Source: Fibrobacter sp.
GTDB lineage: Bacteria; Fibrobacterota; Fibrobacteria; Fibrobacterales; Fibrobacteraceae
Direction: 5' to 3'
Assembly (NCBI GenBank): GCA_017412605.1
Contig: JAFPWY010000011.1
Location: 124,001-188,000 of the forward strand
Length of the DNA stretch: 64,000 nucleotides
Made by a program: the position numbers and the translations under genes. The notes beneath the pieces are model-generated. The model saw nothing but the letters and a program-made list of their open reading frames with translations, did no database searches and had not been told where the DNA came from. Positions 38,943 to 58,061 of the stretch are shown one piece after another. Each line of letters opens with the position of its first letter. The stretch's first letter is position 1.

Positions 38943-39866
38943 TCATTTCAAAATATTCTCAGCCCATGATTTGTAATCCCTATCTGGAACACCGGGACGG
39001 CAAGAATTTACCATGTGAGCCCAAACAATTTGCTCCCTATACGGACTGTTTACAGACGCTACTCTGCAATAATTAAATTTTTCTTTTCCCATTAATAATG
39101 GAGAAAGTGATATTTCAGACAATTTTATAAATGAGAGTTTTTTTAGGTTGACTGTCAAATAAGGAAAAACCTTAGGTAATTCCGGCAGTGAAACCTTTCC
39201 TTTATTATAACCATAAGAAAGCATCATAGAAACATTGTTAATACACTTGTCGCTTTCTTCTGTTGTGGCTCCCTCCTTGAGTTTAACATAATTGTGGAAA
39301 GATTTTTTGTTTTCACATTCTGCAACAAGAATGTTCGTATCTCCATTTTTTTTTACTCGCGCCATATCGCAACTAGGAGTTAAAACAACAAAATATTTTT
39401 CTTCGGCGTTGTTTTTTAAGATGTCTGCAACCAACAAGGTCTTTGCTGACGGAGGATATAAATATTGTGTCCACGTTGGATTTGCTGCCTCTTCAGTTAA
39501 TTTTGAATTAAAAAATTCCGACGCTTGTTTGTTAAGCATGAATTTTACAACAGCATCTCCTGGATAACCATTATCCATTTTAATAGCGGGTTTTAATGAC
39601 GCCATCATAATTGTTGTGGCTCCCTCAATTTGCTTTTTTACATCACTGACTAGAGTTAAATATTTTTCCCATTCATCTATTTTTTGGATAACATCATTTT
39701 CGTCGCCTTTGGGAATCTTTTCAATAAAAGGATTGATACACTGTTCTTCGTTTAATGGTAAAGCTGCTGCAAGAGCAGAGAAAACGATAATGGGTTTATC
39801 GTTAGCCTTTTCAAATATTGGTTCTCCAGCCTGCAAGTTATTGTCAAGATCGTCCTTCCAGTCCAT
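38943..39866 (-). CDS. Response-regulator-like protein, main open frame after a frameshift
   Basis: 307 aa from its first ATG, but homology-like sequence continues upstream in this frame (PDIIVMDW) to an A9 run. The MDW Asp would be the receiver phosphoacceptor, PIIVFSALAAAL the Thr/Ser strand, and NPFIEKIP the conserved Lys-Pro-like end. After about residue 60 comes a 200-residue domain with VLTPSCDMAR and SMMLSYGYNKG that I do not recognise. It pairs with the GHKL ATPase just upstream. Without the N-terminal piece the receiver fold is incomplete, so the gene is inactive, phase-variable, or decoded by slippage. Confidence 0.6.
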   Translation of the reverse strand: MDWKDDLDNNLQAGEPIFEKANDKPIIVFSALAAALPLNEEQCINPFIEKIPKGDENDVIQKIDEWEKYLTLVSDVKKQIEGATTIMMASLKPAIKMDNGYPGDAVVKFMLNKQASEFFNSKLTEEAANPTWTQYLYPPSAKTLLVADILKNNAEEKYFVVLTPSCDMARVKKNGDTNILVAECENKKSFHNYVKLKEGATTEESDKCINNVSMMLSYGYNKGKVSLPELPKVFPYLTVNLKKLSFIKLSEISLSPLLMGKEKFNYCRVASVNSPYREQIVWAHMVNSCRPGVPDRDYKSWAENILK

Positions 39867-39876
39867 AACAATTATG

Positions 39877-40011
39877 TCAGGTTTTTTTTTCTTCTATATA
39901 GTTTAGAGCGTTATCAAAATCAGCTATTTCGACGATCCAACCCTTATCCTTATAATGGTATTGAATTTCTTTTACGTTATCAGGTTTGTCTTCAACAAGC
40001 AAAAGGTTCAT
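39877..40011 (-). CDS. N-terminal receiver fragment of the response regulator (44 aa)
   Basis: The ATG at 40011 comes 2 nt after the stop of the GHKL ATPase gene, so it is translationally coupled. It encodes MNLLLVEDKPDNVKEIQYHY..., the first strand and acidic Glu-Asp pocket of a receiver domain. Its frame ends at a TGA (39877) directly after a run of nine A (39882-39890). Removing one A joins it to ...EEKKPDIIVMDW of the following frame, restoring a normal receiver domain. Confidence 0.6.
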   Translation of the reverse strand: MNLLLVEDKPDNVKEIQYHYKDKGWIVEIADFDNALNYIEEKKT

Positions 40012-40013
40012 CT

Positions 40014-42215
40014 TTAAGCATCCTTTTTTGCAATTGGCAAATCAAAAATGAACGTGGCTCCCGTAGTATCACTAGGGATGCGTAATCCAATTTTGCATTG
40101 ACAGTAACTAAGTATTTCAGTGACAATTACAAGTCCCATTCCTAAGCCATTAACTTTAGATGTAACTCCCGGCAAAAATATTTTTTCTGCATTTTCTGGT
40201 AAAATTCCATTTCCTGTATCGCTAACGACAACCAGTACTCGTTCACTATCAGCTTTTTCCAAAGAAACAAGGATTTTTTTCTCTGAATTATCTGATTCTT
40301 TTATCCAATAACATGCGTTATCAAACAAATTTATAAATATAGTCTGCAATTCACCTTCCGATATGGCAATAGAAATGTTCTCAGGGATGTCAATATCAAA
40401 TTCAACGTCTTGACTAATTTTCTTTGCCTTGATAAGGTTTTCCGCTTTTTTTATACTGTTATACAAATCACATTGAAATTTCCTTTTACGTAAATCCTTC
40501 ATACATAAAGGTGCAAAACAACTAACTAATTCAGCCAACCTTTTGTGTCCGTTTTCAGCATCTTTGAAATATTCATTAGTTCTTGTATCAAATGAACTTA
40601 TATATTCTTTCACTTTGTTTAAAAATCTTTTCACTGAATTCATTCCAGTGAGGAATTCATGCATGACAACAAGTGCGACAGAACCTAAAGATGCAGTTTG
40701 TGCATAATAAGTCAACCTTGATGTCAAAATCTCCATTTTCCTTTTGTTTTCGGAATGGTAGCTTTTGACAATACCCACTATATCTGAACCGCTACGATTA
40801 TTTTTTATAGCATCTTCAATATCGCTAACGAGTTTCTCAGAAGCCTGAGGGTCTATCAACTGGCCTAAAGGTCGAGGCTCTTGTGAACCAATCCTGTCAT
40901 TATTTCGCTCGTTTTGAAGAACATTGATAATTCCACGCAGGGTAAGCGTAAATTGTTTGTATTCAAATGTGTCTGTTAAACTCTCTCGATCGGTTGTGTC
41001 TCGAAGCCCAGGATTATCTGTCGATGAAATATTCACCATACCTATAATTTGGGATGTACTAATTCGTTTGCCAATTTCGCTAATACGTCGAGCATCTAGG
41101 CCAAGCCAATCTTTTGTCGCTTTCGACTTTGGTAAAACAAGAATGTTATCCCGATAAACTGATAAGCCTTTAAACTTAGAAATAGTTTTTCTAATGTCCG
41201 ATCGTTTGATGTTAAATGTCTCGGACACATTTCTTATACTATCAGCATCCAAATCCCATGCGCGAATTTCAAAAGAAAAAGGCCCGCATTTGTAATCATC
41301 AAGTTCTGCTTTGGGGTTTAAAGAATCAAGTTCGTCTTTGCGAATTATAGAATCAAATTCACCGCCGCGAATTTCTGGTTCATAAGCAGATATATCCCAG
41401 GAAATCCTCCCTTCATTCTCTCTATTTTTTTCAATAGAATTGTTAATGTATTTCCAGGAAACTTTTCCATTTGCGTCAACAGTTCCCGAAATGGAATATA
41501 CAGGATTGTTTATAAAAGGATTTAGTTCTATTTTTAAATCATCTTCAGTTGAATCGCCATTATCTTTTTGAATTAAATGAATTGAAAAATCGTTGATTAT
41601 ATGAAATGGATTCAACAAACGGGACAATTCATCTTTCAGAGATAAGAATTTGTCCTTTGACCAAAATTCTCTTAATTCTTTAATGCGGATGATTGTTCCC
41701 GATTTTTTCCCAATTAACGGATCTTCTTCAGGTTTGTCGTCCAGTTTAATCGTACACTTATCAAGGGAATTCGCATTTCGTAATCTATCCCAATCGATTG
41801 ACACAAAAACGCTAGATTTCATTTCCGAAGTTTTTGTGTATATCGATACAAGTTTCCCTATTTTGGCAACGGAAAAACGTCCGACACCTTTATTTCCCGA
41901 AACACATCGAGATTTCTTTTTCCCATTGATAATACGAGTAATGACGGGATTTTTTTCTTTATATGGTGTGGCAACAGTTGCAAACACTGTTTTTATTGTT
42001 TCAACAGACATGCCGAGACCGTCGTCACTAATTTCTATGCTTTGCTCTGAACCGTTTATAACCAAAGAAATATCGACCTTGAATGCAAACGCATCATAAG
42101 CATTTTTTACAAGTTCGGCAAGAACGACATCGTCGCTGGTAACTAGCTCATCTCCAAACGCCGCAAAAGCTCTTGGATGTATTGTTACAGGGATGTCTAT
42201 TGATTCTTTTTGCAT
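40014..42215 (-). CDS. Protein with two GHKL ATPase modules (Hsp90/MutL-like plus histidine kinase-like)
   Basis: 733 aa. N-terminal GHL-type ATPase: LAELVKNAYDAFA (N box, about 33), ISDDGLGM (G1, about 60), SGNKGVGRFSVAKIG (G2, about 107). C-terminal histidine-kinase-type module (about 490-730): a helical region with MHEFLTGMNSVKRFL (possible phosphoacceptor helix with His), NLFDNACYWIKE (N box), VVSDTGNGILPENAEKIF (G1/F) and NGLGMGLVIVTEI (G2). Genes with this dual layout are seen near restriction and phage-defence genes. It lies 5 nt after the C5 methyltransferase and 2 nt before the response-regulator fragment, so it is probably the sensor of a two-component pair. Confidence 0.8.
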   Translation of the reverse strand: MQKESIDIPVTIHPRAFAAFGDELVTSDDVVLAELVKNAYDAFAFKVDISLVINGSEQSIEISDDGLGMSVETIKTVFATVATPYKEKNPVITRIINGKKKSRCVSGNKGVGRFSVAKIGKLVSIYTKTSEMKSSVFVSIDWDRLRNANSLDKCTIKLDDKPEEDPLIGKKSGTIIRIKELREFWSKDKFLSLKDELSRLLNPFHIINDFSIHLIQKDNGDSTEDDLKIELNPFINNPVYSISGTVDANGKVSWKYINNSIEKNRENEGRISWDISAYEPEIRGGEFDSIIRKDELDSLNPKAELDDYKCGPFSFEIRAWDLDADSIRNVSETFNIKRSDIRKTISKFKGLSVYRDNILVLPKSKATKDWLGLDARRISEIGKRISTSQIIGMVNISSTDNPGLRDTTDRESLTDTFEYKQFTLTLRGIINVLQNERNNDRIGSQEPRPLGQLIDPQASEKLVSDIEDAIKNNRSGSDIVGIVKSYHSENKRKMEILTSRLTYYAQTASLGSVALVVMHEFLTGMNSVKRFLNKVKEYISSFDTRTNEYFKDAENGHKRLAELVSCFAPLCMKDLRKRKFQCDLYNSIKKAENLIKAKKISQDVEFDIDIPENISIAISEGELQTIFINLFDNACYWIKESDNSEKKILVSLEKADSERVLVVVSDTGNGILPENAEKIFLPGVTSKVNGLGMGLVIVTEILSYCQCKIGLRIPSDTTGATFIFDLPIAKKDA

Positions 42216-42220: not shown

Positions 42221-43276
42221 TTACCGATTGATTTCAAGAATAAGTTGTCCAAGTCTTTTGGCATATTCTGGCGGCACTGCATTTCCAATCAATTTTGCAG
42301 CCACTTCTAATCTAGCCGTCTTAAACTCATAATTCCAAGGAAAGGATTGCAAAGTAGCCCCTTCTCGAACAGAAAGCCCCCGATCATCTTCAGGATGCCC
42401 AAAACGCCCGTTTGAATAGCTTAGGAACTTTGTTGTAATAGTGGGAGATGGTTTATCCCAAAAAATCCGGCCATACACATCACAAAAAGAATGATCTTTA
42501 CCTCGGTAACATTTTAATTGTAGCCGCCTGTCATTTTTCCATTCTAAACGATTACCACCGTCGTGTGGAGTATGTTGTATCCGCTCTAGATTAATTTCAG
42601 ACAGCTGTATTGCAGAATGAAATCTTGTTGTATTCGTATCTCGGTGTCCAGCATCTATACGCCTATACACCCTTCTATCGCCTATTGCTTCTCTTACCGT
42701 AACCTCATTAGCTTCTTTTTCTGGTAAGTGAACCTCCCTACCTAGTCTGGTGGCGATAAGTGAAAAACGGCGACGGCTCTGCGGAACGCCGTAATCTTTC
42801 ATATTAATGACTTCGTACTTGCAAGTCCTAGATTTGGGAGCGCCATATCCATGTTCTTCCAAAAAACTTAAAAAATCATAAAGAACGGTTTCTTTATTTG
42901 TGATAATTCCAGGAACATTTTCAACAAGAACATATCCAGGGTTGTAATATTCAATAAAATTTTGAAATTGCAAAAGCAAATCTTTTGATGCTTTAGATTT
43001 CTCTTTTGAGGAACGAATAATGCTGTAGAACTGACAAGGGCTGCAACCAACAAGAATTAGATTGTCGTCATTTCGACGGATATTCATTTCCTTTTCAAAA
43101 TAATTCAAGGGTAACTTGGTGATATCTGCGTGGATAAATTTTGCGCCTTCATTATTTGCTTCATATGTTTCTTTCGCGTCGATATCAAAATCAACACCGG
43201 CAACCACTTCTATACCAGCCTGACGTAGACCGCAGGTCATGCCGCCACCGCCACAGAAAAAATCAATCGCTCTCAT
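42221..43276 (-). CDS. DNA (cytosine-5) methyltransferase, DrmMII-position
   Basis: 351 aa from the ATG at 43276 (GGAG upstream); a TTG further up is less likely. Motif I IDFFCGGGGMTCGLRQAG (about 4-21), motif IV GCSPCQ with catalytic Cys81, motif VI ENVPGI, motif VIII QSRRRF, and motif X GNAVPPEYA. The target recognition region (about 180-270) cannot be read for specificity. It transfers methyl from SAM to C5 of cytosine. In class 2 DISARM the methylase DrmMII marks self DNA and sits at this operon position. Vsr at 19.0 kb may deal with its deamination products. Confidence 0.93.
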   Translation of the reverse strand: MRAIDFFCGGGGMTCGLRQAGIEVVAGVDFDIDAKETYEANNEGAKFIHADITKLPLNYFEKEMNIRRNDDNLILVGCSPCQFYSIIRSSKEKSKASKDLLLQFQNFIEYYNPGYVLVENVPGIITNKETVLYDFLSFLEEHGYGAPKSRTCKYEVINMKDYGVPQSRRRFSLIATRLGREVHLPEKEANEVTVREAIGDRRVYRRIDAGHRDTNTTRFHSAIQLSEINLERIQHTPHDGGNRLEWKNDRRLQLKCYRGKDHSFCDVYGRIFWDKPSPTITTKFLSYSNGRFGHPEDDRGLSVREGATLQSFPWNYEFKTARLEVAAKLIGNAVPPEYAKRLGQLILEINR

Positions 43277-43313
43277 ACGATTCTCCAGGATTCGAGGAAA
43301 AAATAACAAGTTT

Positions 43314-45014
43314 TTATTCAATCATTCCGATTGAATTCAACGCACTTGCCAAATCACGACGAGGATTTCTTATTTTTCCTTCAAATTTCAAACAGTTTGT
43401 TAGTATTTCTCGACAATCAGCATCATCTAATTGAGCTATCAGTCCTAATCTTATACGCGCTCTGGACGTCCCTACATAAAACAGCATCGCATTTTGATTA
43501 TTGAATGTTTCAGAATTCACATCAATTAATATAACTCCATCGGCTTCAAGACCTTTGAATTTCCGACACGTTGTAAACATGTATTTGTCCTGATATTTTC
43601 CATTTCGGACCACATTTGCAAGAACGCTCTCTGATTCTGTCTTGCAGGTTAATATGACAAGATTTTTTATTCCATTTGATACAAATTCTTTTATCACCTC
43701 ATTTAAACAAGTAATGGCGGTTTCCGCTGTTCTGTAATAAATATTTGCAGGAACACCTTTCACACTACCTTCAATTAAAATAGGTTTCCTTTCTGGAATA
43801 ACTTTTAACGATGTTGTTGCGATATTTTCCGTATTGCGACAATTTCTATACAAAGTCAATTTACAATCAGCATCTTCAATATATTTGGGAATTTGTTTAG
43901 ACTGGACAAGCTGAAGCTTGTCATAAAAAACATAAAAAGTTCCATTTACGCTTTCATCAGTAACAATATCTCGTAGCAGTTCCAAAATTTCTAGTTCATC
44001 AATCCCGTCTGCTCCAAAATCCTGGCCTTCGTCAACAATAATATGTTTATACGGGAAATTACCATGAAAAAACATGTCGTCTAGCCAAGATTTTAAAATC
44101 AGATAATTTGCCGTTGAACTATTACATTTTTTACAAGCTAAAGATGCTATAGTGAAGAAATCTATATTGCTGTTTGGATAATTGTTCTCTAAAAATTCCC
44201 TTAATTTCGCATTATAGCAAAGGAAAAGGACTTTTTCACCTTCATTAGCATGCCGCTGAGCCTTTTCTATCGCAATCATGGTCTTTCCTGTCCCTGCAGC
44301 ACCGTTGATTACTGCAGTTTTCTGTTCTGAAAGGAAATTCAAAATTCCAGATTGCTCCTTAAGCAGTCTATGAAATACCATTTTCTTGAGGTCATTTTCA
44401 AATGTCGCCGTAGGGAAGACATTAAAATGCGGGCATAGGACTTCTCGCATCATTCTTTTCACATCATCATCTGTTAAAGATGTTGATATCTTTTTTTGTG
44501 CGTCTAATGCGTATATTCGCTCTAAATATAGCTCAGGATTGTCTAAGGCTTCCTTTGTTAAAACAATATTTTTGTCCGCATCAGGAGGAAACTGCATAGA
44601 ATTTAACATTGCTGCTGTTATTGAGGGGAACCACACTCCATGAAGAAATTTGCATTTATCCAAGAGTGGTGCTGAGTGACTTCGCTCAATGTATTGTCTC
44701 AGTTTATGCTTGTTTAAGCTGGCCTGGACAAATGGTCCTTCGTGTTTCATTTTAATTCCACTTGCATAGAACCAGCAACCTTCTTTATATTCTACAGCAC
44801 CAGCTTTGGCCTCCAAACAGATTATGCCATATTTTTTGTTGAATATGACGAAATCTGTTTCGCTTTCATGGAGAGTGTTGTTAGTAACAGAAATCATTCG
44901 GAAAGAATGAAAAACATAATAGTCATTTGGCAATTTTTGCAAGGCGTCAAACATCAGTCCCTCTAAACTTGCAGCAGCAAAGTTTCGGGGCGTATCAGGA
45001 ATCATAATAGCCAT
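43314..45014 (-). CDS. NERD-domain nuclease fused to UvrD-like helicase
   Basis: 566 aa. N-terminal NERD (nuclease-related) domain with SETDFVIFNKKYGIICLEAKAG (Asp54, Glu68, Lys70 as PD-(D/E)xK positions). Helicase core: Walker A GAAGTGKT (about 240), IIVDEGQDF (motif II, about 325), YRNCRNT (about 380), KFKGLEADGVILIDV and YVGTSRARIRL (motifs V-VI), as in SF1 DUF2075/UvrD-type helicases. It lies between drmB (5 nt) and the C5 methyltransferase, exactly where class 2 DISARM usually has drmC, a PLD-type nuclease. It may replace DrmC. Confidence 0.85.
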   Translation of the reverse strand: MAIMIPDTPRNFAAASLEGLMFDALQKLPNDYYVFHSFRMISVTNNTLHESETDFVIFNKKYGIICLEAKAGAVEYKEGCWFYASGIKMKHEGPFVQASLNKHKLRQYIERSHSAPLLDKCKFLHGVWFPSITAAMLNSMQFPPDADKNIVLTKEALDNPELYLERIYALDAQKKISTSLTDDDVKRMMREVLCPHFNVFPTATFENDLKKMVFHRLLKEQSGILNFLSEQKTAVINGAAGTGKTMIAIEKAQRHANEGEKVLFLCYNAKLREFLENNYPNSNIDFFTIASLACKKCNSSTANYLILKSWLDDMFFHGNFPYKHIIVDEGQDFGADGIDELEILELLRDIVTDESVNGTFYVFYDKLQLVQSKQIPKYIEDADCKLTLYRNCRNTENIATTSLKVIPERKPILIEGSVKGVPANIYYRTAETAITCLNEVIKEFVSNGIKNLVILTCKTESESVLANVVRNGKYQDKYMFTTCRKFKGLEADGVILIDVNSETFNNQNAMLFYVGTSRARIRLGLIAQLDDADCREILTNCLKFEGKIRNPRRDLASALNSIGMIE

Positions 45015-45018
45015 ATTT

Positions 45019-47376
45019 TTACCGATTTTTCAATTTTCTTAAAATGAGATCTGCATTTATATTTGCGTCATTTCCACAAAAACAGATCCAATCACTATTC
45101 TTGGCAATTGCATAATCGTCTTCGTCATCAGAGGTAAAATATGCGATTTTTGATTTTTTCCACAATAAAGTCGCCTTGTACTTTTCTGTGGACGGAGGCA
45201 TCATAAACTCGCAATCGCGAGTTGGTTTTTCTTTGACTTCAAATTCTTGAGAACGAGAAATGAGTTCATTTAGTAAATGTATTTCGGTATCATTTCCAGC
45301 CCATTGTTTTACATCAGACCATATTGATTTGTAATCGACGTCAGATAAATCCACCCCTTCTTTGGGCATAATTGTGCTGTTTGCCGATAATACTGACGCA
45401 GGTGAATTAATCTTTTTCTTCTCTAAATTATTCCAACCTGATTCAGTGAATAATTGCTCATAGAAGAACCCTAATTCTTTGTTATCAAATGTACCAACAA
45501 CTGTGCCCCTGTCTAAGAAAACATTGAATTCTTCACAACTCGTTTCTGGCAGCAAACCACATGAGTAACAGGCTGCTAAATTCAAAGAATCACGACCTTG
45601 GCCGGAACTCAGACTACAGACAGGATCATTTGAGCATACCATTCCCGATTCAATAGCCTTTTTGAAAATATTCGGAAATGTGTCCGGCCTCCCTTGCCGA
45701 ACCAATCCACCAAGCGTTCCTTCAGAATCGCCAGAAGCCGTGTAGATAAATATTCCCGACATATCCTTGCCTTCTGATTCCTCACAGCAATATATTCTTT
45801 CTTTTAGGGACGCTATACTGTAGCCGCATTCAAAACTTAATTGTTTTATCAGCAAATGAGAAATTGTGTGAAGGAGTAAAAATTTTCCTGTTATGGTTCT
45901 TGGGTTATGGGAGCCAATGAATGACTTCCTATAATTTTCATTTAAAATATCAACCCTTCGGCTCAATTCTGTGTTTTGTGTTCGCCATTGGTTTATTGCG
46001 TCTGAGTCGAATTCTATAAAAATACCTTCTCCTCTCACTTCATAAGCAGGATACCAATTCGTTTTATGTTCTTTAACGGACACTACATGTCCTTGTTTAT
46101 CTATTGCTTCAGATTTATCCGCTGGATTAATCCGGGAAAACCCTGTTAACGCCTGAACTTCTCTTATTTTGTGAATTAAGGCAATTTTCTTTATATAAGG
46201 CAAATGATAATCATCAACATTCATAGCTTCGCGCAGAAAATCACTGCCGCTTTCCGAATCAAATGTTACGAAACCACCGAGGGCATCAAACTCTTCGGCT
46301 CTGTATTTTACGCTTGAGGTTGTATATTCTTCATTCGAAGGATGTTTCCATTTTCGTTCAAGTATTGATGCGACTTCATCACTCTTGGCTCCAATTTCTA
46401 ACGAAATGAGATCTGTCGCCTTTTGAATGATTGATGTGAGGGACAAATCCTTTACAGCTTGCGGAAGAGCGTCATTTTTCAATATTGCCTGTAAAGCATC
46501 TCTTTGTTCCTTGTAAGCTTTACATTCTTCGATTTTGCATGTTAGCATGCTTGAATAAGGCGGAATTACCAAGGAGCTTGCCGTTATAGGAAAATAAACA
46601 GACGAACTACCTCTTTGCAACACTTTGGGATATTCCGGACATTCTTCTCGCGTATTCTTCCACGGATGCCGACCTGTGCACGAGAAGTTGTATTTATTCG
46701 GATACTTTTCATCCAAGACTTTGAAAACATCAGGATCAAAAGCGCCTTTTAATGTTGTTTTAACCTTGCAATTTTCGCATTCTATAACCAAGCCTTCAAG
46801 ACCTTCTGTTGCTGACGCTCCAGTCTTGAAAGTTAATTTTGGATTACTGCATATTTCTTTAGGACCACCATAAATATTTTTGCAGTGGACCCATTTCACC
46901 CATGGAAAATCGTCAATATGGCCAAGCTCACAAACCGTTATAATACGAGCGACGACCAGTCCCTGTTTACAGGTCGGACACCGTAATCTTCTGGTCATAT
47001 AGGGATCATATTCTAAAGCTTTTGCACTCGCATTTCTTTTGTAATCTTCAACCCACTTATCAATAGGTTGAAATTTTCTGCATTTTGGACAGAAATACCA
47101 TTCTGGAAACCTTACATATGAAATTCCTTCTCTATACGCTTTTTCGTCTCGTCCTCCAGGCATTCCCAAATAATCAACGTGCAAAGCTTTTTCTAAACGT
47201 TCGTCGTGAATCTGTTTTACATTCTTTTCCCATATTTCAGGAGCAGCCGTCATCAAAGTCTGGTCGGGAAAATCGACCATTGCGCCAACACCATATTGCA
47301 GCACTGCTTGTGAAGCTCTTACTGAATACGCAACATCGTTCAAGTGATACTTTTTATGCAACAATCCATCACTCAT
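45019..47376 (-). CDS. drmB: DISARM protein DrmB (DUF1998)
   Basis: 785 aa. N-terminus with VLQYGVGAMVDFPDQTLMTAAPEIW and paired Cys (CPKCRKF, CPTCKQG) that look like zinc ribbons. The C-terminal DUF1998 domain has LLHTISHLLIKQLSFECGYSIASLKERIYC, IYTASGDSEGTLGGLVRQG and SGQGRDSLNLAACYSCGLLPETSCEEFN. In DISARM, DrmB forms a complex with DrmA and helps engage incoming DNA. Its ATG overlaps the drmA stop by 4 nt. Confidence 0.92.
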   Translation of the reverse strand: MSDGLLHKKYHLNDVAYSVRASQAVLQYGVGAMVDFPDQTLMTAAPEIWEKNVKQIHDERLEKALHVDYLGMPGGRDEKAYREGISYVRFPEWYFCPKCRKFQPIDKWVEDYKRNASAKALEYDPYMTRRLRCPTCKQGLVVARIITVCELGHIDDFPWVKWVHCKNIYGGPKEICSNPKLTFKTGASATEGLEGLVIECENCKVKTTLKGAFDPDVFKVLDEKYPNKYNFSCTGRHPWKNTREECPEYPKVLQRGSSSVYFPITASSLVIPPYSSMLTCKIEECKAYKEQRDALQAILKNDALPQAVKDLSLTSIIQKATDLISLEIGAKSDEVASILERKWKHPSNEEYTTSSVKYRAEEFDALGGFVTFDSESGSDFLREAMNVDDYHLPYIKKIALIHKIREVQALTGFSRINPADKSEAIDKQGHVVSVKEHKTNWYPAYEVRGEGIFIEFDSDAINQWRTQNTELSRRVDILNENYRKSFIGSHNPRTITGKFLLLHTISHLLIKQLSFECGYSIASLKERIYCCEESEGKDMSGIFIYTASGDSEGTLGGLVRQGRPDTFPNIFKKAIESGMVCSNDPVCSLSSGQGRDSLNLAACYSCGLLPETSCEEFNVFLDRGTVVGTFDNKELGFFYEQLFTESGWNNLEKKKINSPASVLSANSTIMPKEGVDLSDVDYKSIWSDVKQWAGNDTEIHLLNELISRSQEFEVKEKPTRDCEFMMPPSTEKYKATLLWKKSKIAYFTSDDEDDYAIAKNSDWICFCGNDANINADLILRKLKNR

Positions 47377-50300
47377 TTTTTATTCTCCCAAATAACAACA
47401 TTTCCCGCAACAGAAGAATCTACATTACGCATAGAAGTCATTGTGCTAAAAGCACTATTATCGTATGAATCCGAATTGAAAACTTTAAGTAACCTATGTT
47501 CTCCATTGGTGGGCGGTTTTATTAAGAATCTCTCTCCATAAACAAATGATTCTGTACCAAATGTTTTTGCATAGGAATCCCAATCGTCAACAGCTTGTTC
47601 AATGGCCATTTCTATACGATTACAATCATCTACCATTCCTGTTTTTAAACGATTTATAATAGAAGTTTCTCGATTAAGAATGAAAGATTTTATTTTCTCA
47701 ATTACGTCAAGATATTTTTCTCTTGAAAAATGTCCGGCACCTTCCTCTGGGCGCAACTCTTCTTTCAAATGCCTTAATAAAGACACAACGACTGCTTTTA
47801 ACGCCCTGTCGCATGCAGGTTCTGAAAATGGGGTCACTCCAGTTGGTTCAACATACTTGTAGAAAGATTCATGATATGATTTGAATTGCTCATAGTGCGA
47901 ACGGTCTCGACTTTTTGCGCCATCATACATAGCAAACGCCACACCAGGATAAGATCGGCCAACGCGGCTAGAAGCCTGTATATATTCGCTTGTTAATTTT
48001 GGTTGTCCAACAAGAAGCATCACATTTAAACGAGCAACATCTATACCAACAGAAATCATATTTGTCGCAAGAAGAATATTTGATGCATACCTCTTTTTTT
48101 CAAGATTTTCTTTTGAATATTCCAGTTTTTCTAATTTATCTAATGTTTCGTTTAATTCCGTCGTTGAAACACGACTTGTCAATTCATCTGCTCTTGTAAC
48201 AAGACGCGCATCTTTTCCAACCCCTAATCGATAAGCAGAGCGCTTAATGAAATCCTTTACGTCGTCATCAACTAATGTAGAGCATTTGCCCAAATCCTTT
48301 AGACTATTAAAATAGGTTGTCAATGTCCAATATTTATCTTTAACTTCGTCGGGTAATTGCATGATGTTAACTTTTTGCAAAAGCGCTGCAATTGAACGCA
48401 CCTCCATCATGGCTTTCGTTTTTCCAGACGGCATCAAGCCAACATACATTCTTCCATATTTATTCAACTCATAATTAACATCAGATTCTCTAGCAAAGAA
48501 TGAATCCTCAGAATCTAGCCCTGGATGAGGAAACTGCAAAACATCCCGATTATACAAGGCTGAGCATTGTTCTTGAGCCCGACGAATTGTTGCTGTTGAA
48601 GCAATAATTTTTGTCTTAACGCCCTTTGATTCGCATAAAGCATCAATTGCTGTTTCATACAAACCGACCATGGAACCCAATGGCCCCGAAATCAAATGTA
48701 ATTCATCTTGAATTATTAGCTCGGGGGAACGATTATTTGTATTCAAAGCGAAATAGGAGCCAATCTCTCTCTTCCAAGGCAACATTGCAAATTTATCAAC
48801 TGTTCCAAACAGCAATGTTGGAGGTTGTCGATACAATTCTTCATCAACAATTTGTAGAGGCAGTTTACCCATTTGATTAAAATGACAGCTCTCTTGTGGG
48901 CAATACAATTGGAAGTGCCTATTCTTTTCCATTCTGTAGCCGAACACACCACGTACAGATCCGTCCACAATATCTTTAACAAGTTTTGTTCCGCACCAAG
49001 GGCATTTTAAAATTTGAAATTTGTTATTCTTTTCCTTTTTTTCTCGCAAATCTCTTATGGTCGCAGAAAGTAATTCATTCAAGCATTTTTTTGCCTCATC
49101 ATTTTTGTTTGGAGTATGTGCACTACCAATCCAGAGACCTATTGAAATCTGTTCTTTTCCTAACGCATAAACTTTATATTTGGGTTTTCTAGCTTGGGAA
49201 TCATTCCGGATATACTCGCAAGCACAAATCAATGTTGATGCACGAGTAAATTGTTGCGCCGCTAATAGACGTAATGTATAGCGCATTATTACAGATGTTC
49301 CGCCAGCAACATCACAATGAGCCATTCTCCTATAAAAAATGGTAAATGCAGTCAAGCCCAAATACGCTTCAGTCTTGCCGCCACCTGTCGGAAACCATAT
49401 TAAATCGACAATATTTCGATCATTTGATTTATCATCTGTAATTGAATTTACGCTCATCAATAAAAAGGCCAACTGAAATGGGCGCCAAAAGTATTGATCT
49501 GCAGTAAACTCGTCATCATTCTTATAATTGATACTCTCTAATTTTTCCGCCAGCTCTTCATCATCTGGATATCGATCAATGTTTGACGTTTTCTCCTGCA
49601 ACTTCAAATGGACTCGCTGCATGAACATCGCTCTATTCGCCAGTTCAAATGCGTTCCATTGGATATCATCCCTTTTCAAAGACTCTATCCCTTTTTTCAT
49701 CCTTTCATAAGATTCAAGGCATTTTGATATGTTTACACTGCCAATACGCCAGAATTTTTCATCTATGGTCTTAAGTTTCTCTGAAAGTTCATCAATCCAT
49801 TTCTTATAAGAGTTAATAAAATTGTCAAGTAAATCTATTTTTTCTTCCTTCACGAAATCATTAAGGTCTGACAAATATTTCATTGACAAGGTTCTCTTAT
49901 CAATTTGATACTTGTCTGGAAAGCGGAAATCCATCTGCGGAACTTCAATCTCTGGGAAAAAGTCATTGTAGAGAAATCCCTTTCCATCGGAATCTATACT
50001 CCAAGATAGAGACGTCCCTAAACCTGTCCCATATACCTTCTTATTGCGGTATAACAGATTTAATGATTGTTCCTCGTCATCAAGCAAGGAAAAATCAGCA
50101 TTGCCAGAGTACTCCGAAAAAACAAACTCATTGTCTTGTGTGTCAATACGAATTTCTGGTTGGAATATACACCTTGTTCCATTCGATTTTTCCATACAAC
50201 TATTCACAAGCATAATTGTTATGGAATAAAGATTATCCGCTACTTTTCGTCTTAATGCAGTAACCTTTAAATTGCAATCATCTAAATTTTTATTGGCATC

Positions 50301-51038
50301 AATATAGTCATCATAAGAGAAATCGAGCTTTACGTCAACACTATGGGGCATTCTCACAAAACCTCTTAATTGATCGCACAATTTACTCATGTAATTAAGA
50401 ATATTATTCCCATCAGCATTAAGAATTTCATTTTTCCACAGGTCTTTCAAATCATGTTTTTTAAAAGCAGAACCCTTGAATTTTAAACATTTGTCTTCTT
50501 TATCATATCTAACAAAACTTGACACTTCAAGAGGAACTTCATAAATCTCAGGCTCTTTGGGGTAGAAAGGAACCTTACAATCTGTGTCTTTTGCATGACG
50601 GTATGTGCCAAATGATACTCGACAGTTAATATGTTCAGAATTACCCCTTGCAAAGAAAGTCACGCCCATTGAAGAAGGCATGTTTTGTGAAGCTAATCCA
50701 ATTTCTTCATCGAGATTATCGTCTTCATTGGAATCGACAAAACCACCCTTTTCCTTAGGATTAACGCCCTCACTATCTTCTGAAACCACATCTTCTTCAA
50801 TTTCATTGATATCTTCGTCAACAGTTTCTTCTTTCTTTATGCTGTCATCATTATCAGCGTTCAATTTATTGTTTTGCGGGAATAAAATTCCTATCGAATA
50901 ACGAACATCAGGAGTATTCGATATAAGTTCATGTTCCTCATCAGGGATAGACACCTCCGATCCAGGGCCAAGTAGTTCCTTTTTTACCAAGGAAATAAAT
51001 TCCTTTCTTGCTTCTATATATTCTTTTACGTCTCTCAT
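47373..51038 (-). CDS. drmA: DISARM helicase DrmA
   Basis: 1221 aa, helicase of the SF2 type. LIWFPTGGGKTEAYLGLTAF (motif I, about 550), IIQDELHLISGPLGSMVGLYE (a DELH box), then ASTATIRRA (motif III) and ATNMISVGIDVARLNVMLLVGQP and YIQASSRVGR (motifs V-VI). It has acidic low-complexity sequence near residues 65-110 (NEIEEDVVSEDSEG). DrmA and DrmB form the core of DISARM. It starts 1 nt after the upstream gene's stop. Confidence 0.94.
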   Translation of the reverse strand: MRDVKEYIEARKEFISLVKKELLGPGSEVSIPDEEHELISNTPDVRYSIGILFPQNNKLNADNDDSIKKEETVDEDINEIEEDVVSEDSEGVNPKEKGGFVDSNEDDNLDEEIGLASQNMPSSMGVTFFARGNSEHINCRVSFGTYRHAKDTDCKVPFYPKEPEIYEVPLEVSSFVRYDKEDKCLKFKGSAFKKHDLKDLWKNEILNADGNNILNYMSKLCDQLRGFVRMPHSVDVKLDFSYDDYIDANKNLDDCNLKVTALRRKVADNLYSITIMLVNSCMEKSNGTRCIFQPEIRIDTQDNEFVFSEYSGNADFSLLDDEEQSLNLLYRNKKVYGTGLGTSLSWSIDSDGKGFLYNDFFPEIEVPQMDFRFPDKYQIDKRTLSMKYLSDLNDFVKEEKIDLLDNFINSYKKWIDELSEKLKTIDEKFWRIGSVNISKCLESYERMKKGIESLKRDDIQWNAFELANRAMFMQRVHLKLQEKTSNIDRYPDDEELAEKLESINYKNDDEFTADQYFWRPFQLAFLLMSVNSITDDKSNDRNIVDLIWFPTGGGKTEAYLGLTAFTIFYRRMAHCDVAGGTSVIMRYTLRLLAAQQFTRASTLICACEYIRNDSQARKPKYKVYALGKEQISIGLWIGSAHTPNKNDEAKKCLNELLSATIRDLREKKEKNNKFQILKCPWCGTKLVKDIVDGSVRGVFGYRMEKNRHFQLYCPQESCHFNQMGKLPLQIVDEELYRQPPTLLFGTVDKFAMLPWKREIGSYFALNTNNRSPELIIQDELHLISGPLGSMVGLYETAIDALCESKGVKTKIIASTATIRRAQEQCSALYNRDVLQFPHPGLDSEDSFFARESDVNYELNKYGRMYVGLMPSGKTKAMMEVRSIAALLQKVNIMQLPDEVKDKYWTLTTYFNSLKDLGKCSTLVDDDVKDFIKRSAYRLGVGKDARLVTRADELTSRVSTTELNETLDKLEKLEYSKENLEKKRYASNILLATNMISVGIDVARLNVMLLVGQPKLTSEYIQASSRVGRSYPGVAFAMYDGAKSRDRSHYEQFKSYHESFYKYVEPTGVTPFSEPACDRALKAVVVSLLRHLKEELRPEEGAGHFSREKYLDVIEKIKSFILNRETSIINRLKTGMVDDCNRIEMAIEQAVDDWDSYAKTFGTESFVYGERFLIKPPTNGEHRLLKVFNSDSYDNSAFSTMTSMRNVDSSVAGNVVIWENKK

Positions 51039-51039
51039 C

Positions 51040-53661
51040 TTAATTCTCTACATTTAATGGCCTATTAATCAAATTAATCGGCATCATACGATTTACATAT
51101 ACAATTTGTTCTAACTTCAAAATTTGAGTTAGCGAATCAATTTTATCAAAGAAGTCTTCCATCATGTCATTTCTAGGGACCAACAAACCATTCAATTTAT
51201 CAATAATCGCTTCACCAATTGCTTTCAGTATTTCGCGTCTTTTCTTCCGGATTATGCGTATACTTTGAAAATACTTTCCGGCATTATCAAACAATTCCTC
51301 ATCATTGATCCTTGAAGCGATAAACTGAAGAGATTCCTGATCTCTTGGGCCGACAATATGTGCATAAGGGTCTAGCCATCTTCGTACAGTTGCCTCTTGA
51401 ACAGCAATACCTTCATCTTTCACCATTTGCGTAGCAATTTCCTTTGGCGAAATATTATTACTTTCAACATAAGAGCGAAATTTCTCTTTCCAAAGAATGG
51501 AATGTGCATAAGCAAGATCTATGGATTGATCTAGTTTTCTTTCATGAATTAAGTTCTTCAGCACAGAATCAACAATATCATGAGCTTGTTCGTCATTTTT
51601 CGTAAAAACAATCGAGTCGCCTTCTTCTATATCAGATACATCAACTTCCTTTACATCGCCATTTTCTTTATCAAGAATATAAGCCCTATAATACTTTGAG
51701 AAAAATATTTTTTCACCATCATCAAAGGTCCCGACGGCAACAACTTCCGATTGCAGATTGTCATTTTTACCTGATTCAATTTTCTTAAATAGAGTTCGTT
51801 CCTCTAACTGTTTAACATATTCATCCATATCGGTGTCAGTTCTTTCAATTTCATCGACATCCTTTTCGATTTCATCACTATCATCACTTGCAAGTTCTTC
51901 TGGCAACAATGAAATATTTACATTAATACGATTCAATTCATCTTCAGCTTTTTTTGCTCTTCTATATTGATGCTTGAATAATATTGCTTCAAAATCATAA
52001 AGAAACACTTCTATGTTTTTTGATGACACGCATTTGAAAACATCAAAGCGTTTTCCAGACATGACTCCCACAGCAATAACAAAATCATATGCCTCTTTAT
52101 TATCAAACTTATTTGCGTTTACAATGGTTAACAATTCTGGCGAATCAACAATTTTGTCAATTCCTGTTTCTTTCAGGAGCGTAATGTAAAATGCTTTAGG
52201 AACAACAATGGCTATTTTTTTATCATGACTTGAGCATATAAAATCACGTATTTGTTGTTCTTTCTTTGATTCACAACGCAGGCTTTCTTCTAACATCTCA
52301 AGGACAATAATTATTTCATCTACCTTTTCACGCACGTCGCCAGAAAATACTTGAGCATTTTGTTTAAGTACGTCAAAACGATTCTGTATATTCTCTACTT
52401 TTACTAAACCCTGATTTACGCATCTATCAAATAGCTCAATATCAAAAACTGCTGTCAAAAACAGTTTCATCAAAGAATATGCATTTACTATAAAGTTTTC
52501 CTTTTCCTCGGAATCAGGCGCATTGATTTTGACAAAGAAAATGTTCTTTTTGAATATTTTATATTCATCCCATGACAAGTAGCCTTCAATTATATGTTTG
52601 TTTATTTGATGATTCTTCACCAAAGAAATCTGTCTATGCAATTCTTTTGTATAAACATTTTCTACAACTAATTCATCAGAATTACCAGATATGTCGGATA
52701 GAAACTTCTTTGAACAAGCGTATATTTCGGGGTTCTCCGTTTCCTGAACCAAAGACAAAACGTTTATGGAATCCAAATTTGCAAGCAAATGAACATAAGG
52801 AATCGATTTTCTTTTAAGTAATTCTGGAATTTCTGATGAATTTCTCCCAATAATTTCATTTCCTGAAATAACTAGACCAATATGCTTATTTCCATCCTTT
52901 TTTAATATCAAATTTCGCGCAACAGAAATTTTTCCAGTTATTTTCAGGTTTACTTCACTTTTTGCAATATTTTTTCCAAAAGAGTATTCCTCTTCTTCGG
53001 TAAAATATGATGCTGTTAACAAATCTAAAAGCGGATAATTTTGGCCGCCTGAAACAAAAGAAAGCTTCTTGATGATTGTTTCTGCGAGTTCTCTGTCCAT
53101 TACTAACACAACAGAGTTGTCAATTACATTAGGAATAGAAGATTTTTCTATGCCTATTACCTGCGTAAAGAACTGCTCGTTTTGCAGAGAAGAAATCTTT
53201 TTTATTCCTCGACCATCCAATCTTTTAGATTTTCCATTATAGGGCTTGATTAGATTCCAACGTTCTAACGGAATGCCAAATTCATCTTTCTTTGGACCAA
53301 TCAAAACGATTTTTTTTACTTGGGCGTTATTGTCGTATTCTTTACTTTTACACTGACATTTAACAAGTTTCAATCCTCGTGCGTATAGGCAATAATCACC
53401 CTTTTTTAGAGATTCAACAACTTCTCTAGGATCAATATGATCTTCTAAAAGACATGTCATGGCTGTGTACGCAATAATACAAGCATCATAGCATATTGAC
53501 CCCGTATGCAATACAAAACCATTATTGTGTTTATCTTTGTAAGACGATTCCGCAAGGAACCGAAGAAATGATCGCAATACTAGTTCTTTAGATATAACAT
53601 TTCCTTCTAATGCTATATCACATCTTTTCAAGATCTCTAAAATTGCGTCTTTCGAAACCAT
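51040..53661 (-). CDS. DrmE-like protein (first gene of the defence operon)
   Basis: 873 aa; GAGG upstream of the ATG. I identify it mainly by position: class 2 DISARM begins drmE-drmA-drmB, and DrmE has about this size. Visible features: a region around residues 430-560 with DKKIAIVVPKAFYITLL and IVDSPELLTIVNANKF (helicase-like strands without a Walker A), an acidic low-complexity segment (DDSDEIEKDVDEIERTDTDMDE, about 620), a beta-rich stretch (VVAVGTFDDGEKIFFSKYYRAYIL), and a C-terminal helical, HTH-like part (VQEATVRRWLDPYAHIVGPRDQ) resembling parts of McrBC-associated proteins. No signal peptide is seen. Confidence 0.7.
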   Translation of the reverse strand: MVSKDAILEILKRCDIALEGNVISKELVLRSFLRFLAESSYKDKHNNGFVLHTGSICYDACIIAYTAMTCLLEDHIDPREVVESLKKGDYCLYARGLKLVKCQCKSKEYDNNAQVKKIVLIGPKKDEFGIPLERWNLIKPYNGKSKRLDGRGIKKISSLQNEQFFTQVIGIEKSSIPNVIDNSVVLVMDRELAETIIKKLSFVSGGQNYPLLDLLTASYFTEEEEYSFGKNIAKSEVNLKITGKISVARNLILKKDGNKHIGLVISGNEIIGRNSSEIPELLKRKSIPYVHLLANLDSINVLSLVQETENPEIYACSKKFLSDISGNSDELVVENVYTKELHRQISLVKNHQINKHIIEGYLSWDEYKIFKKNIFFVKINAPDSEEKENFIVNAYSLMKLFLTAVFDIELFDRCVNQGLVKVENIQNRFDVLKQNAQVFSGDVREKVDEIIIVLEMLEESLRCESKKEQQIRDFICSSHDKKIAIVVPKAFYITLLKETGIDKIVDSPELLTIVNANKFDNKEAYDFVIAVGVMSGKRFDVFKCVSSKNIEVFLYDFEAILFKHQYRRAKKAEDELNRINVNISLLPEELASDDSDEIEKDVDEIERTDTDMDEYVKQLEERTLFKKIESGKNDNLQSEVVAVGTFDDGEKIFFSKYYRAYILDKENGDVKEVDVSDIEEGDSIVFTKNDEQAHDIVDSVLKNLIHERKLDQSIDLAYAHSILWKEKFRSYVESNNISPKEIATQMVKDEGIAVQEATVRRWLDPYAHIVGPRDQESLQFIASRINDEELFDNAGKYFQSIRIIRKKRREILKAIGEAIIDKLNGLLVPRNDMMEDFFDKIDSLTQILKLEQIVYVNRMMPINLINRPLNVEN

Positions 53662-53831: not shown

Positions 53832-53923
53832 CAGGGTTTTAGGGGCGGAGCTCCTAGGAGAGGGGGTGTCCGGAAGACTTGGCGAAGCCAAGGCTGCAGG
53901 CAGGGGGAGGCTTCCCCCTCCTT
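53832..53923 (-). repeat. Dispersed ~90-bp repeat, copy B
   Basis: Reverse-complement match to 11134-11217. It begins right at the stop codon of the methyltransferase gene and contains the hairpins GGGGGAAG..CTCCCCC and CTTGGCttcGCCAAG, so it may also work as a terminator. Confidence 0.7.
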
Positions 53924-54570
53924 TATCCGTTCGGGTTGGCGAGGGCCGGGGTTGCTTTCCAGAATGCTTCTCGGAAGAAGGGGTTGCCTGCGAGCCTGTC
54001 CCTGATTTTGAGGATGTTCCTGTGGGCGATTTCTATCAAGATGCAGTTCCGTTTCAAATTTAGTGCGGCTTCCCCCACGACGCCGCTGCCGGCGAAGGTG
54101 TCGAGCACGGTTTCGCCCTGCCTGGTCACGAACTGTAGGATTTTTTCGCACAGGGTCAGCGGGAGTTCGCTCTGGTGAATCTTGTTTTTCCTTGCCACAG
54201 GCGGGATGTCGAACATGGCGGGGAGCTTGCTCCCCTTTTTCCAGGTGACTTTCGAGTAGTAGAGCAGCCCGCACTGTTCAGCGTACTTTTTGATTTGGTA
54301 GAGGTAGTCGTCGAGTGTGTACCTGAAGCAGTCGTACGTGGCGAAGTTGCGGTCGCCGCCCTTGTTGGACTTCTTGTCGAGCCACGGGTGGTCGGTCAGG
54401 ATGCAGTCGATGGAGGAATCCCCGAGCATGGAGAGGTCAAGGCGGTTGTCGTAGATGCGTGCGCGGACGGTTTCCTTCGGCTTGTCGGAGTTTTCGGAAT
54501 AGGCGTCCTTGAGCGAGAATTCGCCCTTGTCCTTGAAACAGGAGTAGATGGTGTTTGCGAGTGATTTCAT
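53923..54570 (-). CDS. Beta-class DNA methyltransferase (N4-cytosine/N6-adenine type)
   Basis: 215 aa. CILTDHPWLDKK (about 57-68) is motif IV, a DPPY variant reading DHPW, and VLDTFAGSGVVGEAALNLKRN (about 165-185) is motif I. The IV-before-I order is that of beta-class enzymes, and the target domain is short. The N-terminal residues 1-45 (YSCFKDKGEFSLKDAY...VRARIYDN) look like a separate winged-helix. It transfers methyl from SAM to an amino group. No restriction enzyme is adjacent, so it may be solitary or a guard for the neighbouring defence operon. It reads toward the operon and is followed by repeat copy B. Confidence 0.78.
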   Translation of the reverse strand: MKSLANTIYSCFKDKGEFSLKDAYSENSDKPKETVRARIYDNRLDLSMLGDSSIDCILTDHPWLDKKSNKGGDRNFATYDCFRYTLDDYLYQIKKYAEQCGLLYYSKVTWKKGSKLPAMFDIPPVARKNKIHQSELPLTLCEKILQFVTRQGETVLDTFAGSGVVGEAALNLKRNCILIEIAHRNILKIRDRLAGNPFFREAFWKATPALANPNG

Positions 54571-55566: not shown

Positions 55567-55861
55567 CGTCGTTTCTGTCGAAGTCAGTGCCGAAGGCTTG
55601 CTGGTAGCTCGATTCCAGCGCCGCTTGCGGGGTGCAGCTTTCCCTGAACAGGACCATGCCGCTGTCCAGGCATTCCATGTCCAGTTCGCCGTCGGTGTCG
55701 ATGCTTTCCGGCCGGAACGTGGACCATAGGCAGTAATCGGTGTACCCCTCCCGGATGTCTTCTTCGAGCAGGTTGTCGCCCGTGCCCGCCTGGACTTTCA
55801 GGAAGGCGCCCCTGCCCTTGACCCACGCGAGAATCGCCCCGCTGAACACGTCTTTTTCCAT
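55529..55861 (-). CDS. Hypothetical protein (110 aa)
   Basis: From the ATG at 55861 (AGAGG 5 nt upstream). It is acidic and soluble, without a recognised domain; segments include AILAWVKGRGAFLKV and YCLWSTFRPESIDTDGELDMECLDSGMVLF. An upstream in-frame Met exists but lacks an RBS. Its end overlaps the convergent antitoxin gene by 38 bp. The clear RBS supports it as a real gene. Confidence 0.6.
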   Translation of the reverse strand: MEKDVFSGAILAWVKGRGAFLKVQAGTGDNLLEEDIREGYTDYCLWSTFRPESIDTDGELDMECLDSGMVLFRESCTPQAALESSYQQAFGTDFDRNDVIILMRGNDEQP

Positions 55862-55965
55862 AAGGCCTCTGCTGCCAAAAGATAGATAATGCGCGTGACA
55901 GAAAATGACAGGGGAAGAGACCCGAAAAAAGCCGCGCAAGATTGGAAGTCACAAATGCCACCATA

Positions 55966-55991
55966 AAACCCCCTCGAAATCGAGGGGGTTT
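55966..55991. terminator. Terminator at the end of the lipoprotein operon
   Basis: Perfect 11-bp stem AAACCCCCTCG / CGAGGGGGTTT with a 4-nt loop; on the minus strand it is followed by TTTTAT. Confidence 0.85.
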
Positions 55992-56021
55992 GCTGTTACA
56001 CGGAGTCATGCATGAATTGTT

Positions 56022-57092
56022 TTAGCAGGTCAGGCCTTCGCCGCACGGCGTGCAAGAGGCGTTGTTCCCGCAGTCGTTCAGTTCTTCGACTTCCCGGATT
56101 TCATGGACGTTCTTGTTGTCGTCGTACTTGATGTATTTTACGTTGACGAACTTGTCGCTGAGGGTGAACGTGATGGTACCCATGAAGCCGCCGGTCGTTG
56201 TGCATCCCGGGTACAGGATGGTAGCGTATAAGGTATCGCCCGAAAGTGTCGCCCTCAATCCGTTGAAGGTGCAGACTTCGTTAACGAGCACGCCGTCGTC
56301 TTGGATGGAGACCGTGCCGTCGGCGTTCTTCACTTTCACGACGCTAGGTGTCACGGCGGGGCCGCCGCGATACGACGATTTCACGTTGGTCGCCTCTTCG
56401 ACGATCTTCTCGCCCATCGGAGGCGGCAGGTACAGCCACACGCCATTGTTACACTGATAGACGTCGTCTTCAGTAACCAGTGTCTCTCCGTTCTTGTCGC
56501 AGGGGGTGCCAGAAATAGTATCCCTGTTACACTTACTGCCCGGGGGGCAAATATCGATTTCTACCCAGTAGTTCGCGGCGCACCTGAACGCCTTGCCGGT
56601 CACGCAGTCGGTAACGTTTTCCACGTCCGTGGCGCTGTCGCAGTTCCCGTTTGCGGTCATGCTGTCGTAATCGGTGATGTGCATGCAGTTTTCCGGTTCC
56701 TTCTGGCTGGAGCTGGACTCGGTTGTTGCCGAGGTCGGCGCCACTTCGGAAGAGGATGCCGGGACTACGTCGGAAGAGGATGTCGGGGGCACGTCGGTGT
56801 TGGAATTCTGGACGGTGTCCGCGCTCGGGTTGGCGCTGGAGGTGGGCGCATCGATGCTATTGGGGGCGGGCGTGTCGCTGGAGGCGGGCGAGTCCTGGTT
56901 GGAATCGCTGCTTGCCGGGGCGTCGCCGCTGTTTGCCGGAGTGTCGCTGCCGCTGGAAAGCGGTTCCTGGACCGAGCTCGTGTCGTTGGCGGGGGACACG
57001 CTGGAACTGTCGTCACCGCAGGCGGTGAACGCGAAGGCAATTATCGAAGCTGCGGCAATTCCGCAAGCCATGCTGGTGATTTTCTTTTTCAT
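56022..57092 (-). CDS. Lipoprotein with Ser/Ala-rich linker (last of operon)
   Basis: 356 aa; GGAGAAG precedes the ATG. Signal peptide and lipobox AFTAC (Cys25), then a low-complexity Ser/Thr/Ala/Pro linker (about 28-135). The rest has Cys-rich modules (CMHITDYDSMTANGNCDSAT, CPPGSKC) and a C-terminal domain (VTPSVVKVKNADGTVSIQDDGV...ELNDC) shared with the next paralogue. The ending CTPCGEGLTC is Cys-rich. Probably anchored in an envelope membrane and exposed. Function unknown; fourth lipoprotein of the TIGR02147-led operon. Confidence 0.8.
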   Translation of the reverse strand: MKKKITSMACGIAAASIIAFAFTACGDDSSSVSPANDTSSVQEPLSSGSDTPANSGDAPASSDSNQDSPASSDTPAPNSIDAPTSSANPSADTVQNSNTDVPPTSSSDVVPASSSEVAPTSATTESSSSQKEPENCMHITDYDSMTANGNCDSATDVENVTDCVTGKAFRCAANYWVEIDICPPGSKCNRDTISGTPCDKNGETLVTEDDVYQCNNGVWLYLPPPMGEKIVEEATNVKSSYRGGPAVTPSVVKVKNADGTVSIQDDGVLVNEVCTFNGLRATLSGDTLYATILYPGCTTTGGFMGTITFTLSDKFVNVKYIKYDDNKNVHEIREVEELNDCGNNASCTPCGEGLTC

Positions 57093-57110
57093 GATACTTC
57101 TCCTTAATTT

Positions 57111-58049: not shown

Positions 58050-58061
58050 GATACTTCTCCT

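Follow-up and report, generated by a model that had tools for sequence, protein, structure and literature searches.

The stretch analysed here, hereafter the window, comprises 64,000 nucleotides (nt) of Fibrobacter sp. DNA (contig JAFPWY010000011.1), and encodes on its minus strand, from 53661 down to 42221, an operon that is probably a DrmC-less anti-phage system of the DISARM (defence island system associated with restriction-modification) type, with a fusion of a NERD nuclease and a superfamily 1 (SF1) helicase as its dedicated effector. The nuclease DrmC is reported to be dispensable and often missing, and the way in which DNA is degraded in its absence has been called a mystery (PMC9142583). 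How DrmC-less DISARM systems destroy DNA is an open question in the literature, to which this locus and its relatives give a specific and testable answer, namely a DrmC-free branch of DrmB systems in which a dedicated NERD nuclease-helicase is common and which offers a candidate docking domain. The conservation of the gene order in distant bacteria suggests that the NERD-helicase is what many nuclease-less DISARM systems use against phage DNA. New here is a C-terminal domain of DrmB that ties DrmB to one clade of NERD-helicases, and which an earlier, sequence-only reading of the window had missed. A literature search found no description of a NERD-helicase in DISARM.

The gene order DrmE, DrmA, DrmB, NERD-helicase and C5 methyltransferase given by the sequence-only reading is confirmed by both the open reading frames (ORFs) and the profile matches. 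The DrmE-family protein (51040 to 53661, 873 amino acids (aa)) is separated by a 1-nt gap from DrmA, a YprA-family superfamily 2 (SF2) helicase (47373 to 51038, 1221 aa); DrmA overlaps by 4 nt with DrmB (DUF1998/MZB; 45019 to 47376, 785 aa), and another gap, of 4 nt, lies between DrmB and the NERD-helicase (43314 to 45014, 566 aa), in agreement with the spacing of a few nt that had been described. The C5 cytosine DNA methyltransferase (42221 to 43276) comes next. The order DrmE-DrmA-DrmB-NERD is also found in a congener (genome G099) and in three Lachnospiraceae loci (L015, L016 and L020), and because of this recurrence the arrangement is not due to chance. DrmA scored 945 bits against NF038325, 5 bits under the equivalog cut-off of 950, and 721 bits against the PADLOC DrmA model, and a Walker A motif (GGGKT) and a DELH box are readable in its sequence. 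DrmB scored 467 bits against NF038324 (cut-off 240) and has an MZB match. The locus thus encodes a DrmA helicase and a separate DrmB (DUF1998) adjacently, as expected of the DISARM core. The DrmE protein matched the broad DrmE_fam model NF038316 with 606 bits (cut-off 80), as well as Pfam DrmE_C, but reached 54 bits (cut-off 250) against the canonical class 2 model DISARM_DrmE NF038323, so that its earlier description as DrmE-like holds for the family and not for the canonical protein. As had also been noted, no phospholipase D (PLD) domain, and hence no drmC, was found among the scanned window proteins. The system is therefore of the DISARM type by its core, and is not canonical class 2, because both DrmC and a canonical DrmE are missing. 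Class 2 DISARM (drmE-drmA-drmB-drmC-drmMII) shares with the window an operon that combines the DrmA/DrmB core with a DrmE-family protein and a C5 methyltransferase, whereas the window has no DrmC PLD nuclease, a non-canonical DrmE, a NERD-SF1 helicase in the drmC slot and an additional domain in DrmB.

The NERD-helicase matched Pfam NERD with 34.1 bits (cut-off 22.1) and UvrD_C_2 with 35.5 bits (cut-off 27.4), and its top PADLOC match is RTasNERD-Hel (180 bits). Its helicase part is UvrD/GajB/HelD-like, with HelD, Schlafen, UvrD and GajB among its relatives of solved structure. The catalytic residues of NERD (E18, E52xD54, E68xK70 and Q97) and the helicase motifs (Walker A, GAAGTGKT, residues 238-245; Walker B, DEGQDF, residues 328-333) are all intact in the window protein, and the NERD and SF1 motif columns are kept in 92-94 of 94 aligned relatives.

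A scan of GTDB species genomes returned 80 NERD-helicase loci. A split DrmA/DrmB pair lies near 19 of them and a single-chain YprA-family helicase near 14; 31 have neither nearby, and the remaining 16 have insufficient flank. The single-chain helicases score as DruE in PADLOC, as shown for L017 and L057. Among loci whose flank is long enough, 33 of 64 therefore have a YprA-type helicase nearby. Among 168 genomes of the window's phylum, a NERD-helicase together with DrmB was seen in one other genome, the congener G099, whose operon (L011) has the gene order of the window. In alphaproteobacteria, on plasmids as well as chromosomes, a UvrD-like gene stands first, before DrmA, DrmB and NERD, and in L153, L157, L159, L185, L167 and L087 the order is DrmE, NERD, DrmA, DrmB. 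The sequence-only reading had proposed to search for DrmA/DrmB loci with this NERD-helicase and no drmC; loci with DrmA/DrmB and a NERD-helicase are recurrent, and four further ones have the order of the window. The link between the NERD-helicase and DrmAB occurs in several arrangements and is not universal for the NERD-helicase family. Neither of the two findings that the sequence-only reading had named as refuting it was made: no drmC was found in the locus, and the NERD-helicase is consistently linked with DrmAB, at the level of a clade rather than family-wide. In a tree of 94 sequences, the window protein falls in a clade of 14 members (Shimodaira-Hasegawa-like approximate likelihood ratio test (SH-aLRT) support 99), with five split DrmE-DrmA-DrmB systems, eight single-chain, Druantia-like YprA helicases and one case of insufficient flank as partners. 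All 13 resolvable members are encoded directly downstream of a YprA-family gene, with frames overlapping or nearly abutting, and the five DrmE systems form one group within the clade, with a support (87) that is not strong. Tight YprA linkage is a property of this clade and a few others. Among the DrmE-family loci obtained from samples based on DrmB (see below), five of six carry a NERD-helicase.

Several other arrangements were seen in these searches. In L017, L018, L019, L022 to L025, L028 and L199 to L201, a single-chain Druantia-like YprA helicase (~1700-1900 aa) is followed directly by the NERD-helicase; the genes upstream of it, where seen, are mostly large and mostly mutually unrelated, and Druantia partners sought among them gave no PADLOC match. 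In three Bacillota loci (L055, L073 and L086) a divergent DrmA-DrmB pair lies between two SF1 helicases, of which the downstream one has NERD; in the two loci that were checked, the upstream one has no recognised NERD motif. On an Azospirillum plasmid (L005), a gene for a DarT-like single-stranded DNA ADP-ribosyltransferase (13800-14402) stands directly behind a UvrD-DrmA-DrmB-NERD cassette. Weak matches to the NERD-helicase profile in L149, L150, L166, L171, L188 and L194 were rejected, as they covered the helicase part only and had no nuclease motif.

DrmB is ~780-790 aa long in the five DrmE-DrmA-DrmB-NERD systems, compared with ~600-660 aa in most others, the C-terminus of the window DrmB exceeding that of most by ~150 aa. 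The extra ~135 residues (653-785 of the window DrmB, encoded by 45022 to 45420 of the minus strand) show homology to the C-terminal end of the single-chain YprA helicases that accompany NERD-helicases of the same clade, with hmmsearch E-values down to 2e-22 and an hhalign E-value of 2e-14. Using a joint profile, the domain was detected in all five of these DrmB proteins and, among single-chain helicases, clearly in the six from which the profile had been built and weakly in those of L023 and L028. No other DrmB protein examined has it, including those linked to drmC or to other NERD-helicases. Because the joint profile had been built from those same sequences, an independent search was made in 392 genomes of one order, which recovered two known loci and added three confident ones (L199, L200 and L201), all with single-chain helicases and all three with a NERD-helicase directly downstream. 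One marginal match (E 6e-5) came from L202, an ARMADA type II-like locus, the sequence of which reads as a helicase and, after it, a fusion of a RelE-like domain with a UvrD-family helicase. In the model of the DrmB domain (predicted local distance difference test (pLDDT) score 87.7), a helix is followed by three strands, a second helix and a further strand, as in PD-(D/E)xK folds, and catalytic residues are missing by visual inspection, consistent with a degenerate member of that fold. A Foldseek search with the domain gave no significant PDB match, and the weak top ones include the endonucleases PvuRts1I and AbaSI (E 0.6-1.7). Druantia and ARMADA helicases have been described as carrying an inactivated Vsr domain at the C-terminus (Bell et al., PMC12458937), and we infer that the DrmB domain is the same domain.

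The distribution of DrmC was studied by sampling DrmB in three further phyla and fetching the flanks, and genomes picked through NERD loci were excluded from the counts. The first sample (the phylum of a Lachnospiraceae genome) contained five genomes with a NERD-helicase, four with DrmC, four with neither and one truncated locus. The second (the Sandaracinobacteroides phylum) gave two loci with DrmC, one with NERD, one with an SF1 helicase without NERD, one with neither and one truncated, and the cyanobacterial sample gave nine DrmC loci and one NERD locus, the remainder having neither or being cut off. DrmB sequences were also placed in a tree of 56 rows, where the window belongs to a branch of 31 rows (SH-aLRT 96), none of which has DrmC and 22 of which adjoin a NERD-helicase; this proportion is biased, since part of those rows came from NERD searches, and the absence of DrmC is free of that bias among the DrmB-sampled rows of the branch. 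The sister branch has DrmC in 14 of 23 rows, with Vibrio locus L038, which also has a NERD-helicase, as the fifteenth, and two further DrmC rows branch separately. As the sampled tree has no DrmC in the window's branch, this branch may be an alternative lineage instead of the product of a drmC replacement. The earlier placement of the NERD-helicase in the drmC slot is thus correct as to position, while a replacement event may not have taken place. The tree covers no canonical class 2 DISARM of Bacillus, as a search of the samples for such a locus found none, and since DrmC was detected with one profile, plus NCBIfam checks on three examples, a highly divergent DrmC could escape.

We infer a role of the operon in phage defence, in which the steps might be as follows. 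The C5 methyltransferase would mark host DNA, either as DrmMII or via the adjoining restriction-modification unit. DrmA-DrmB would load on invading DNA that is unmodified or single-stranded, and would translocate, as has been shown for class 1 DrmAB, whose activator is unmethylated DNA bearing single-stranded 5' overhangs (PMC9142583). The C-terminal domain of DrmB, a predicted dead PD-(D/E)xK domain, would then dock the NERD-helicase in place of DrmC recruitment, the SF1 motor would unwind or travel along the DNA while NERD cuts, and DrmE, by appearance an inactivated SF2-like helicase, could be a scaffold or regulator. Docking specifically through the DrmB C-terminal domain is a possibility that we put just below an even chance. 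The domain shared by the two helicase architectures would connect DISARM-type with Druantia/ARMADA-type systems in effector recruitment. A wider proposal, tentative and on balance unlikely, is that YprA-family helicases generally dock effector-SF1-helicase proteins (the NERD nuclease here, the RelE RNase in ARMADA II) through an adaptor of this kind, a C-terminal PD-(D/E)xK domain that is catalytically dead, with adaptor and effector moving as one module between DISARM-type split and Druantia/ARMADA-type single-chain helicases.

A number of observations weigh against the NERD-helicase as a dedicated DISARM effector recruited in this way. Among NERD-helicases whose flank is long enough, 31 of 64 lie away from any YprA-type helicase, so the family can act alone; L160 is a DrmE-DrmA-DrmB-methyltransferase locus without a NERD-helicase; and L038 (Vibrio hepatarius, 2880-11587) carries DrmC and the NERD-helicase together, in the consecutive order DrmA-DrmB-DrmC-NERD-helicase. 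DrmB proteins that accompany NERD-helicases of other clades have no C-terminal domain, so docking cannot need it everywhere, and the PD-(D/E)xK identity of the domain is predicted from its topology. Both the NERD-helicase and the DrmB trees are quick searches with midpoint rooting. The first of these points would fit an independent single-gene defence that shares the island and the operon with a DrmAB working without it, as Nhi is a single-gene nuclease-helicase defence (PMC12904381) and its PADLOC model matches the NERD-helicase weakly (30 bits). This explanation is unlikely in view of the 13 resolvable clade members, all directly behind a YprA-family helicase, and of the DrmB domain, whose occurrence follows that clade in both helicase architectures; moreover, the protein does not stand alone as Nhi does, but sits 4 nt behind DrmB in an order conserved across genomes. 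Bravo et al. have proposed that DrmC-less DISARM recruits other PLD nucleases (PMC9142583), and the genome of the window (G000, 15 contigs) has two PLDc_2 loci in all, on other contigs (C7 and C15). It is nevertheless quite improbable that such a nuclease cuts the DNA with the NERD-helicase as an auxiliary: the two loci are weakly DrmC-like (E 1e-9 and 4e-6) and unlinked, and the operon itself encodes a nuclease with intact catalytic motifs. The presence of DrmA, DrmB, a DrmE-family protein and a C5 methyltransferase, and the frequent absence of drmC from DISARM (PMC9142583), would also suit an ordinary class 2 system that lost drmC and gained a random neighbour. We regard this as very improbable, because the gene order is conserved, with the NERD-helicase in the same place in five genomes from two phyla, and the DrmB domain co-varies with it; the DrmC-free DrmB branch and the failure of DrmE against the canonical model also speak against it.

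It is possible, though somewhat short of an even chance, that the methyltransferase and the GHKL, response-regulator-like, McrB-like and LlaJI-like genes behind it form a separate restriction-modification module, the core DrmE-DrmA-DrmB-NERD having no methyltransferase of its own; this would be compatible with the NERD-helicase as the effector of a DISARM-type system. The core of the congener is followed by a nearly abutting run of genes for one methyltransferase, then an HgiDII-family enzyme and another methyltransferase, and finally McrB and LlaJI; the window methyltransferase may therefore be part of the adjoining HgiDII/LlaJI-like module. Consistent with this, generic type II methyltransferase (269 bits) and DruM (236 bits) models of PADLOC outscore DrmMII (193 bits), and the NERD systems with UvrD in the DrmE slot are mostly without a methyltransferase. 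On the other hand, a C5 methyltransferase is present in the fetched region of all 12 DrmE-family loci, in two of them (L015 and L016) directly upstream of DrmE. The C5 methyltransferase assigned to the core by the sequence-only reading is thus present, but its membership of the core is uncertain. The protein matched the C5 DNA methylase family PF00145 with 180 bits, its PCQ, ENV and QSRRR motifs are visible, and it is 82% identical to that of the congener. The ORF call reaches TTG 43321, but ATG 43276, 37 nt past the NERD stop (40 nt in the congener), is more likely to be the start.

ARMADA type II (ArmA-ArmB-ArmC-ArmD), in which all four genes are required for defence and the effector lies directly behind the YprA helicase (PMC12458937), resembles the window in having a YprA-family helicase and then an effector fused to a UvrD/GajB-like helicase. 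However, it has a RelE-like RNase effector, a single-chain helicase with a Vsr nuclease, and BrxHII-like and PglX-like genes, whereas the window has a split DrmA/DrmB and NERD, and no BrxHII- or PglX-like genes among the scanned neighbours. TALON (PMC12458937) likewise combines a NERD nuclease with a YprA-family helicase, but its helicase is of the ARMADA-like single-chain type, it includes TPR-CSD and TBP genes, and its NERD is not described as an SF1 fusion; the window has the split pair, and Pfam scans of the neighbours gave no TPR-CSD or TBP. Nhi, Nhi-like proteins and RTasNERD-Hel also join a nuclease and an SF1 helicase in a single chain, but Nhi is active as a lone gene, and the catalogue entry of RTasNERD-Hel places it with defence reverse transcriptases, while the partner here is DrmAB. 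With Druantia (DruE) and the Druantia-like single-chain loci, the window shares a related NERD-helicase, of the same clade, and the same helicase C-terminal domain; they differ in having a single-chain helicase in place of DrmA and DrmB, and an unrelated, variable upstream gene in place of DrmE.

The DrmE family is rare and divergent, with 14-50% identity to the window protein. Foldseek with its AlphaFold model (pLDDT 80.6) found SF2 helicases, including RIG-I, MDA5, Hef and XPB, at E-values of 1e-8 to 1e-4, with low template modelling (TM) scores (0.2-0.4), and the Walker A lysine is absent in the aligned members; with moderate confidence, DrmE can be taken as an inactivated SF2-like helicase. 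A search of its sequence against the PDB gave no match, and no DrmE was found in viral contigs and plasmids. Homology to the UvrD helicase that occupies its slot in alphaproteobacteria was considered and rejected (hhalign E 0.86).

Beyond 42221 the operon extends into a minus-strand gene for a GHKL ATPase (40014 to 42215), which starts 5 nt beyond the methyltransferase and is probably co-transcribed. The N-terminal part of its product is like the restriction enzymes HgiDII and BbrUII, and the C-terminal part (HATPase_c) like histidine kinases; the congener has a fuller HgiDII-family match at this position. A relative of this hybrid (24% identity) is encoded at 269-2461 of L166, on the same stretch as a DrmA-DrmB-SF1 helicase locus. 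Three-frame translation of 38943 to 40011, on the minus strand, showed a response-regulator-like gene, with the receiver (REC) domain read from sequence, in which an A9 tract (39882-39890) shifts the ORF starting at 40011 into the frame of the ORF 38943-39866, which may reflect an assembly error, a pseudogene or slippage. Next on the minus strand are an McrB-like AAA GTPase (MrcB_N and AAA_5) of an LlaJI-like restriction unit (36987 to 38801), possibly part of the island operon, and an LlaJI-like restriction endonuclease subunit (34930 to 36969; RE_LlaJI, 31 bits), both of which also have counterparts in the congener (L012).

Just upstream of drmE, a short ORF of 215 aa (53923-54570) resembles an N6/N4 DNA methyltransferase with a DHPW motif; it appears internally shortened and is a possible remnant. 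Five consecutive minus-strand ORFs without a Pfam match (55584-60553) adjoin a DUF4423 gene. The window also encodes Fib_succ_major proteins, in keeping with a Fibrobacter-like genome. In the same island-like region, at 26815-32830, three genes encoding ORF6N domains flank a gene for a YhcG PDDEXK nuclease.

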